A DNA stretch of 64,000 nt from Methylophilaceae bacterium (GTDB taxonomy: Bacteria > Pseudomonadota > Gammaproteobacteria > Burkholderiales > Methylophilaceae): contig JAFMCB010000003.1 of assembly GCA_017858095.1 (NCBI GenBank), positions 1 through 64,000 on the forward strand, written 5' to 3'. Positions within the stretch are counted from its first letter, which is position 1. Every line of letters starts with the position of its first letter. Made by a program: the position numbers and the translations under genes. This document shows, in pieces, positions 29,663 to 35,501 of the stretch. The notes under the pieces were generated by a model that made no database searches, was not told where the DNA came from, and saw only the letters and a list, made by a program, of their open reading frames with translations.

Positions 29663-30104
29663 TGGTACAAAAAAGAAAATAAATAATCGTCGCAAGGCAC
29701 GTGAATTAATCATGAAGAGTATTTACCGTGGACTGGTAAATCAATTTGATGTGTTACAAATTCAAAAAGATATTAAGGAAGACCCAGATTTTATTCGCGC
29801 CGATGAGATCTTTTATAACGAGACTTTCAGTGGGGTTGTTGAAAATTTTACGTCTTTAAAGGATGAAATCTGCACTTACCTTGACCGAGATTATAATGAA
29901 TTAAGCCCTATTGAGTTAGCCATTATTTTTTCTGCATTGTATGAATTGAAATTTCATCCAGATATTCCATATAGGGTTGTAATTAATGAAGCAATCGAGG
30001 TGGCAAAATCTTTTGGAGGAAGTGATGGGTTTAAATTTATTAACGGCGTTTTAAATAAAGCGGCAAAACAAAATCGCATAGAGGAATTTACTAGATCAGC
30101 TTAA
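29655..30104 (+). CDS. nusB: Transcription antitermination/ribosome assembly factor NusB
   Basis: NusB pairs with S10 on boxA RNA for rRNA antitermination. The all-helical 149-residue protein shows RRKARELIMKSIYRGL at the start and the C-terminal YRVVINEAIEVAKSFGGSDG and FINGVLNKAAK blocks. It overlaps ribH by 8 bp upstream, and its 3' end overlaps the convergent lpxH by 9 bp. Confidence 0.94.
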   Translation: MDNGTKKKINNRRKARELIMKSIYRGLVNQFDVLQIQKDIKEDPDFIRADEIFYNETFSGVVENFTSLKDEICTYLDRDYNELSPIELAIIFSALYELKFHPDIPYRVVINEAIEVAKSFGGSDGFKFINGVLNKAAKQNRIEEFTRSA

Positions 30105-30827
30105 AAATATATTTTTAAGTTCAATTTTATCCCACAATAAATAATTTCCAGAGCCATACCAATCACCAAGCACCCAGCGTTCACAAAATTTTCCATCATA
30201 ATTGTATTTGTGCGTCTTTAAACGATGTGTGTGACCATGAATGAGTAAAGCAGGATAATTATTTTTTTTAAATACCTTCTCAACAGCTTTTTCACTCACA
30301 TCAATTATGGAATTATCATTTTGAATATGAGACTGCGCACTTCTCTCTCTCAATTTTTCACAGAAATTTATACGGTATTCAAGTGACTTACTTAGAAAAT
30401 AATTAATACAGATTTTTTTTCTAACAAAAAAACGAAATATTTGATAGCGGTAATCGGTGGTACATAAAGTGTCACCATGCATTAATAAAGTTTGATTTTT
30501 ACCGAGCAAAATTTCAGTTGGGTCTTCAAGCAAGGTTATGTTGTTATGATGTAGAAAATTTTCACCAATTAAGAAATCACGATTTCCTGGCATAAAAAAA
30601 ATTTTAGTTTGCTTTGCTAAATTTCTGAGAATTTCTTGAGTTTCAGGAAAATGATTTGCATCATCACCTACCCAATATTCAAAGAGATCCCCTAAGATAA
30701 ATAGATATGGGTGTGGTGCACAATTCTTTTGTAAAAAATCATTAAAGCTTCGAATAGTTTTAGGATCAGTCTCGGATAGATGAATATCTGAGACAAATAT
30801 TGCTGATTCAGAGTGAATTGCAATCAG
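30096..30827 (-). CDS. lpxH: UDP-2,3-diacylglucosamine diphosphatase LpxH, apparent CTG start
   Basis: LpxH hydrolyses UDP-2,3-diacylglucosamine to lipid X in lipid A synthesis. Reading upstream of the first ATG (30593) in frame gives the whole N-terminal domain: FVSDIHLSE, then [12 protein letters not shown], then [10 protein letters not shown], followed by LMHGDTLC and [10 protein letters not shown], the complete metallophosphatase set. Between the in-frame stop upstream and the DIHL motif there is no ATG, GTG or TTG. The likeliest start is CTG at 30827, in a CTGA overlap with the ppiB stop and with AGGA about 9 nt upstream, giving 243 residues, the normal size. ATT codons at 30824 and 30818 are alternatives. 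Confidence 0.85.
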
Positions 30828-31309
30828 ACGCTTACTTCCTCAATAATTATTGCTTCAATAGGAACATCTTGATGCCCATTTGGGTGGTTTCCGGTTGCCA
30901 TATTTTTAATTTTATCTATCGTATCCATGCCTTCAGTAACCTTGCCAAATACACAATAACCAAAACCATCTTGAGCAGGATAATTTAAAAAATCATTATT
31001 TGCCACATTAATAAAAAATTGCGAGGTTGCTGAATCGGGTACGGACGTTCTTGCCATGGCTACTGTGTAGGCATCATTTTTTAATCCATTGTTTGACTCA
31101 TTTGCAATAGGGGGTTTTGTATCTTTTTGCTTCATATCGGGAGTAAAGCCACCGCCTTGGATCATAAAGCCATTAATTACACGATGAAAAATTGTGCCAT
31201 TAAAAAAACCAGAATTTACATAATCAAGAAAGTTTCTTGTTGTAATTGGAGCATTTTTTTCATCCAATTCAATTTTGAATGAACCCAAATTTGTTTTAAA
31301 TAACGGCAT
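30824..31309 (-). CDS. ppiB: Cytoplasmic peptidyl-prolyl cis-trans isomerase (cyclophilin B type)
   Basis: A 161-residue cyclophilin without signal peptide. The catalytic region [15 protein letters not shown] (about residues 40-55), the [19 protein letters not shown] block and [13 protein letters not shown] are conserved. It speeds proline isomerisation during folding in the cytoplasm. It is 8 nt downstream of a second, exported cyclophilin gene and overlaps lpxH by 4 bp, so the three form an operon. Confidence 0.94.
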
Positions 31310-31317
31310 TTTTTCTC

Positions 31318-31863
31318 CTAATTGATTATTTTAATTGCTTTAATTGTAACGCGCTTAATTGGAACATCACCCATGCCCTCTTTGACATGTGTTGGTAAGG
31401 AGCCAATCTTTTGCACTACACGATGTCCGGATGTTACTTTTCCAAAGACACAATAACCGTCACCATCATCAAGAAAATAATTATCCTTTAGATTAATAAA
31501 GAACTGTGATGTTGCTGAGTGTGGATCATTTGTTCGAGCCATGGCAATAGTATAGGTCTCATTAAATAAACCATTTTTTGATTCATTTTGAATAGGCTCA
31601 CGCGTTTCTTTTTGATTAAGATTTTTGTCAAAACCACCACCTTGGATCATGAAGTCTCGAATCACACGATGGAAAATTGTTCCCGCATAAAATCCTTCAT
31701 TCACATAGGTTAGAAAATTTTTTACTGTATTTGGAGCTTTTTCAGGATTTAATTCAACTACAATATCCCCTTGAGTTGTTTCTATAACAACACTTTGACC
31801 GAAGGTGACGTGGGTAAAAAATAGAAGAAAAATTAATAGGTATTTTTTTAAGTTTTTATTCAT
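31318..31863 (-). CDS. ppiA: Periplasmic peptidyl-prolyl cis-trans isomerase (cyclophilin A type)
   Basis: A 181-residue cyclophilin with a signal peptide ([16 protein letters not shown], cleavage likely before QSVVIE). The core carries [15 protein letters not shown] and [18 protein letters not shown], so it should be active. It lies immediately before the cytoplasmic paralogue, a tandem arrangement of two compartment-specific copies. It is divergent from cysS over 114 bp. Confidence 0.93.
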
Positions 31864-34574: not shown

Positions 34575-35501
34575 GTGAATTTTATTGACGTTTCTGTAGG
34601 TATTTTACTTAATGATACAAAAGTATTGTTAGGGAAAAGGCCTAAGACAAAACCTTGGGCAGGTTGGTGGGAATTTCCTGGGGGCAAAATAAATTCCGGT
34701 GAAACAGCGAATGACGCCTTAATTAGAGAATTGAAAGAGGAGCTTGGTATTACTGTGACCTCCTCTGAGCCATGGATGATAAGAACACATCATTTTAATA
34801 ATCAACCCATTCGATTACATTTTTTTAAAATTAATTCATGGCAAAAAAGCCCGATTGCTCTTGAGCATGACGAATTAAAATGGGTGGAAATAGAATCCCC
34901 CAAGGTGGAACCTCTGTTGCCAGCTAATCAAATGATATTTCAATCTCTTCAATTGCCCTCAATCTATGCCATTACTAATATGACAGAATTTCATGGTAAT
35001 TTTTTTTCTCTTCTTGAAAGAAAAATTAAATCAGAAATCAATTTAATTCAAATTCGTGAAAGATTATTAGATCAAAATGAATTAGAGATATTTTCAAAAA
35101 AAGTTTTACATCTCGCTAGGCAACATAAAATCAAAGTATTGATCAACGCCAATCTAGAATTGGCAAAGAAAATCAAAGCTGACGGCGTGCATTTAAATTC
35201 AAAGCAGATATACGAGAACATAACCATTCCAGAAGAAATGATAATTGGCGCCTCATGCCACTCTATTGAAGATTTAAAACAGGCAGAAGCAAGAAAATAT
35301 AATTTTGCACTTTTGTCCCCTGTTAAAAAAACATTAACACATCCCAGCATAGATCCAATGGGTTGGAAATCTTTTCAGGAAATTATTAATCAGGTTCAGA
35401 TACCAGTTTACGCTTTAGGCGGAATGGCTTGTAGTGACATTCCAAATGCTTTTGAGTCTGGTGCGGTGGGCATTGCAGCACAAAGGGCTATTTGGACTTA
35501 A
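34575..35501 (+). CDS. Nudix hydrolase (MutT) fused to thiamine-phosphate-synthase-like domain
   Basis: A 308-residue two-domain protein starting at GTG. The N-terminal MutT domain has the Nudix box GGKINSGETANDALIRELKE followed by ELGI (about residues 35-58) and should hydrolyse oxidised nucleotides such as 8-oxo-dGTP. The C-terminal half (about 130-308) has the ThiE/TenI barrel pattern: IRERLLDQNE, KVLINANLELAKKIKADGVH, GASCHSIEDLKQAE and PVYALGGM. This fusion is known in beta- and gammaproteobacteria. Whether the second domain is catalytic is uncertain. The 3' end overlaps the convergent copper chaperone gene by 4 bp. Confidence 0.88.
   Translation: MNFIDVSVGILLNDTKVLLGKRPKTKPWAGWWEFPGGKINSGETANDALIRELKEELGITVTSSEPWMIRTHHFNNQPIRLHFFKINSWQKSPIALEHDELKWVEIESPKVEPLLPANQMIFQSLQLPSIYAITNMTEFHGNFFSLLERKIKSEINLIQIRERLLDQNELEIFSKKVLHLARQHKIKVLINANLELAKKIKADGVHLNSKQIYENITIPEEMIIGASCHSIEDLKQAEARKYNFALLSPVKKTLTHPSIDPMGWKSFQEIINQVQIPVYALGGMACSDIPNAFESGAVGIAAQRAIWT

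Follow-up and report, generated by a model that had tools for sequence, protein, structure and literature searches.

A conserved CTG as the probable start codon of lpxH in a genus of Methylophilaceae

The ppiB-lpxH junction

The window analysed here, i.e., the whole 64,000-nucleotide stretch of DNA at the start of contig JAFMCB010000003.1 of a Methylophilaceae bacterium, belongs to a draft assembly (44 contigs, 88.93% complete) and carries two tandem cyclophilin genes on its minus strand (30824-31863). The upstream gene (31318-31863) encodes an N-terminus that by eye resembles a signal peptide, and the downstream one, ppiB (30824-31309), is followed by the reading frame of lpxH. The 3' end of ppiB reads GAG GAA GTA AGC GTC TGA and ends at 30824, with its stop codon (30826-30824) overlapping a CTG (30827-30825) as CTGA. 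This CTG is the putative start codon of lpxH which, read from there, comprises 243 codons and a stop (30096-30827, minus strand). An AGGA (30837-30840), the candidate Shine-Dalgarno site, lies inside ppiB 9 nt before the CTG and shares an A with the TGA (30842-30840) that closes the lpxH frame upstream. Between this stop and the CTG the frame holds the codons GGA AGT AAG CGT, and from the CTG it continues as CTG ATT GCA ATT CAC TCT GAA TCA GCA ATA TTT, while the first canonical start, an ATG at 30593-30591, would remove 78 residues. An earlier note on this DNA had claimed that the frame has no ATG, GTG or TTG ahead of the ATG at 30593, that a stop closes it just upstream of the CTG, that an AGGA lies about 9 nt ahead, and that the reading from the CTG gives 243 residues; the sequence of the minus strand bears this out, and the product matches LpxH.

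Among the 71 non-overlapping ORFs of the window, only lpxH runs for a long stretch before its first canonical start (82 codons; the next largest value is 26). CTG is a rare codon in the 64-kb window, with a share of 0.55% among all codons and 5.4% among those for leucine. Folding of the RNA around the ppiB-lpxH junction gave no structure beyond that of shuffled sequences (z 1.09 and 0.88).

The 243-aa reading scored 256.7 bits against NF003743 (cut-off 134) and 209.3 bits against TIGR01854 (cut-off 190.35), and solved LpxH structures align with it from residue 8-9 onward. The genus, which we take to be streamlined and OM43-like, was sampled with 31 genomes, one per species and many of them drafts; lpxH was present in 27, and G009, G010, G014 and G022 gave no lpxH match. 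The motifs SDxH, GDxFxxW, GNRD, HGD and HGHTH, presumably the metal motifs of LpxH, are kept in all 27 lpxH genes, and in the window the metal-site motifs of the calcineurin-like fold are complete only when the frame is read from the CTG.

Conservation of the CTG among relatives

The junction was read in all 27 lpxH loci, which were divided into group A (18 species, including the source of the window) and group B (nine species). The comparison with relatives that the earlier note had suggested as a check favours the CTG, which occurs at the equivalent place in 18/18 species of group A and, counting the whole genus, in 22 of 27 lpxH loci. An AGGA precedes it by 8-9 nt in all 18 members of group A, 14 of which have zero canonical starts between the closing stop and the CTG. 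The remaining four (G020, G004, G002, G029) have an in-frame TTG 15 nt upstream of the CTG, overlapping the AGGA as TTGAGGA; in these species a gene caller could pick the TTG, and it could also be usable as a start, which counts against the CTG. Downstream of the CTG, a canonical codon first appears after 78 codons in the source genome and after 30-130 codons in the 17 others.

In each of the 17 group A members in which the ppiB stop could be placed, it starts 1-11 nt past the C of the CTG, and the lpxH start lies within or touches the end of ppiB in all of them (G027, with its ppiB stop unplaced where the contig ends, was left out of the overlap counts). The particular CTGA overlap proposed in the earlier note is present in this genome, but it did not stand as a conserved feature, occurring in 8 of the 17 placed members.

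In a tree built from LpxH and PpiB, group A falls on one side of a branch with support of 80/78, which is not firm, and group B is supported at 100/100. Across the 18 group A species, the C, the T and the G of the CTG each show 0 changes on this tree, and the eight columns ahead of them show 4-7 changes each. The second lpxH codon shows 1, 0 and 3 changes over its three positions and the third codon 4, 2 and 9. The CTG is thus not the sole unchanged spot, since the middle base of the second codon and one G column of the Shine-Dalgarno site also show 0 changes.

Constraint on PpiB does not explain the conservation of the CTG, because two different ppiB frames overlap it: among the 21 CTG loci whose ppiB stop could be placed, nine read xxC TGx and 12 read xCT GAx. 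The first of these puts the C at a third codon position of ppiB, and there a C to T change would turn the CTG into TTG without altering the PpiB residue, yet none of the nine loci has TTG. In the second frame the chance of a CTG is 0.23-0.34 per locus, adding little. Under the ppiB constraint, the rough chance of finding CTG in all 10 group A sub-clades is 10^-10.4, and 10^-11.4 when two group B sub-clades are added, for an estimate that takes PpiB residues, codon use (from the 64-kb window only) and stop use as given, uses the largest probability per sub-clade and treats the sub-clades as independent. As far as the aligned sequences tell, the CTG is conserved beyond expectation, and comparison between species shows the CTG itself and its conservation, along with the AGGA and the ppiB overlap.

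In group B the AGGA is lost, and eight of the nine species have, 12 nt before the place of the CTG, an ATG open to lpxH, which the gene appears to use in these eight. Over the same columns, group A reads ATTGAGGA or ATAGAGGA and group B ATTGATGAAG, ATTAATGAAG, ATTAATGAAT or ATAGATGAAG; the exchange of AGG for ATG in group B destroys the Shine-Dalgarno core and, at the same time, creates an ATG in the lpxH frame. The change would have run from the group A state to the ATG of group B. The CTG is present in G007, G008, G011 and G021 and missing from G001, G003, G006, G012 and G016. In the four that have it, the chance of a CTG from ppiB alone is about 0.31 each, and they provide weak evidence because CTG is not very unlikely in the second ppiB frame. 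In G016 (L023), a single-contig genome of one strain, the ATG that its sister species appear to use continues as ATG AAG GCT and then TAA, with no ATG, GTG, TTG or CTG ahead of the LpxH core, and the likeliest start for lpxH there, judging from the codons present, would be an ATT 8 nt after an AAGG.

Outside the genus, the comparison took in 44 lpxH loci, one (L027) from the same order and the other 43 from the same family. A canonical codon (ATG, GTG or TTG) precedes the conserved LpxH core in every one of them, and reliance on CTG is therefore seen only in this genus. A scan of genome contigs returned one distant locus with 22% identity. In the sister genus g14 (L037-L049), a TTG lies six codons ahead of the LpxH core in 13/13 loci; the first codons of lpxH in g14 lie near or overlap the ppiB stop.

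Initiation machinery, other odd starts and alternative explanations

The source assembly contains 28 tRNAs, with the leucine anticodons taa, caa, tag and gag and no cag. A pattern match recovered the initiator tRNA with the anticodon arm GGGCTCATAACCC in 19 of the 31 genus genomes, and the other 12, including the source assembly, gave no exact match to the pattern. The 16S tail is the usual CACCTCCTTTC, with CCTCC, in the six relatives examined (6/6), and the source assembly gave no 16S match. A changed initiator tRNA or anti-Shine-Dalgarno sequence was rejected as the cause of the CTG, both being ordinary where found. Nothing found points to altered decoding.

Matches to IF3 were obtained in 28 of the 31 genomes, two of them fragments. 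With the two fragments left out, infC has ATA at the expected start in 26/26 loci examined (L105-L130), from which it follows that non-canonical starts are used in the genus. A total of 400 kb of G019, a member of group A, contains 409 ORFs, 28 of which have at least 18 codons ahead of the first canonical codon, in a scan that misses genes whose next canonical codon comes early. Pfam was run on 18 of these 28, ten being omitted (two cross the border of the stretch and eight are shorter than 150 codons). In three of the 18, the homology sets in well ahead of the first canonical codon, namely infC (residue 17 vs 69), lpxH (18 vs 74) and a NUDIX-thiE fusion (15 vs 28). The remaining ORFs include one without a Pfam match and a tRNA methyltransferase (19 codons) in which only a side match starts a few residues early.

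The NUDIX-thiE fusion follows argJ and has a GTG start in the window (34575-35501, plus strand). Among the loci compared (L167-L171, L184, L185), the usual GTG position holds GTA in G025 and GTC in G015, while G019, G023, G017, G022 and G024 lack a canonical start at this N-terminus, apart from codons far upstream or, in G023 and G017 alone, a GTG inside the core. The case is ambiguous, as a CTG in five species is explicable by the end of argJ (INSEYRT). The NUDIX-thiE match of G007 (L186) holds one in-frame TAA. Odd starts thus look few in the genus, and lpxH may not be alone.

The most serious rival to a selected weak start takes the CTG for a neutral relic: start codons would be loosely kept in this genus, and a CTG would be good enough. 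We regard this as unlikely, yet as a reading to be taken seriously: it agrees with NUDIX-thiE having GTA or GTC in two species vs GTG in others and having no canonical start where the protein normally begins in five, but it fits poorly with the absence of TTG, GTG and ATG from the place of the CTG in all 18 species and with the few comparable genes in 400 kb of G019. Considerably less probable is initiation at the ATT at 30824 or at 30818, with the CTG as a bystander. ATT starts have been reported for infC (PMC5472188), the G016 gene of group B is seemingly left with ATT only, and the codon after the CTG is ATT in 13 of the 18 group A species; it is, however, ATA in four and TTA in one, and the position of the ATT at 30818 varies as well (codon 4), whereas the CTG is constant.

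A PpiB-LpxH fusion produced by ribosomal frameshifting at the overlap would profit from frames that overlap or abut in 17/17 placed members, but it is a very improbable reading, as the ppiB frame relative to lpxH varies (9 vs 12 of 21) and the direction of the frameshift would therefore have to change between species; besides, a shared slippery run was not seen by eye in the alignment. That the ATG at 30593, although the first canonical start, begins a remnant of lpxH or a shorter protein hardly deserves credence: as the earlier note had argued, such a start drops metal-site motifs, which are kept in 27/27, leaving 165 of the 243 residues, and this 165-aa reading matched no Pfam family at E 0.001, with the next canonical codon scattered 30-130 codons past the CTG in relatives. 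A sequencing or assembly error in the draft source genome is refuted, as all 18 species carry this codon, including G019 with its single-contig genome.

A probable weak start on lpxH and its relation to known systems

We consider the CTG at 30827 to be the start codon of lpxH with a probability of about 0.85, judging from the comparisons above. In the mechanism we propose, the ordinary initiator fMet-tRNA would start translation of lpxH at this CTG, and LpxH should therefore begin with Met. The AGGA in the last codons of ppiB would serve as a Shine-Dalgarno site that places the ribosome, and ribosomes ending ppiB a few bases away would probably help initiation, so that we infer a translational coupling of lpxH to ppiB. 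Selection would keep the weak CTG, since one transition would give TTG, and its likeliest use would be to fix LpxH at a low level.

LpxI gave no match in any of the 31 genus genomes (control: 1 of 14, Caulobacter), and one LpxH match was found in the source genome. Given the absence of LpxI from 31/31 genomes and the single LpxH match in the source genome, lpxH is probably essential in this genus. Growth was impeded and cells lysed when lpxH was strongly expressed in P. aeruginosa (PMC11202943), and depletion of LpxH in Acinetobacter led to toxic intermediates (PMC12444477). Excess and shortage of LpxH can thus both hurt, and a low fixed rate is something that selection could reasonably favour.

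If lpxH behaves like infC and sigR, its initiation should also be sensitive to the initiation factor IF3. It is conceivable, though at present doubtful, that infC (ATA) and lpxH (CTG) form a weak-start set in which the level or state of IF3 governs both initiation fidelity and the flow of lipid A precursors, a control that the sister group would have removed by its change of AGGA to ATGA. If true, outer-membrane synthesis would be tied to initiation capacity through one codon.

A CTG that many species retain on a probably essential metabolic gene offers a natural experiment on why selection would favour a poor start, and the sister group shows how a single base can separate a Shine-Dalgarno site from an ATG. 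Annotations of the group are predicted to lose the metal-binding N-terminus of LpxH or to start it elsewhere, and the lpxH case supplies a sequence test for other such genes.

The literature describes CTG as a rare and poor start. Wild-type initiator tRNA favours GUG and UUG over CUG (PMC11497404), which counts against a CTG start. In a reporter, expression from CTG was about tenfold below that from TTG, and CTG starts are cited for 20 of nearly 85,000 annotated genes (PMC11983097); switches from AUG to CUG numbered 2 in 61,358 over 36 genome triples (PMC5622118). No report of a CTG start of lpxH was found among open-licence PMC papers.

Conserved non-canonical starts on chromosomal genes are exemplified by infC, which starts with ATT in E. 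coli and ATC in Streptomyces (PMC5472188). Like lpxH, infC combines such a start with conservation, but it is self-regulating whereas lpxH makes lipid A, and its ATA in this genus is a third-base mismatch whereas the CTG of lpxH is a first-base mismatch. The sigR gene of Streptomyces has a GTC start that is repressed by IF3 (PMC5472188). It resembles lpxH in a non-canonical start kept across the genus (32/34 species in the case of sigR), a good Shine-Dalgarno site, an overlapping or coupled neighbour and nearby canonical codons that mislead annotation. On the other hand, sigR encodes a stress sigma factor rather than a probably essential biosynthetic enzyme, is the upstream gene of its pair and is backed by experiments.

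For the codon itself, the closest parallel is the rep gene of the FIB replicon, whose CTG start is argued to give just enough product (PMC11983097). Like lpxH, it pairs a CTG with a Shine-Dalgarno site of the AGGA/GGAG type, and it is usually misannotated downstream. It differs from lpxH in being a plasmid gene with a start proven by mutation and N-terminal analysis and in apparently lying outside any overlap with an upstream gene. The overlap has its counterpart in re-initiation within E. coli operons, which extra IF3 lowers, though less so with a Shine-Dalgarno site (PMC2268962). In that work, as in lpxH, the start codon is at the upstream stop and a Shine-Dalgarno site is present, but the reporter used AUG, unlike the CTG of lpxH. 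Taken together with these systems, lpxH would join infC, sigR and FIB rep among the known genes with a conserved non-canonical start.
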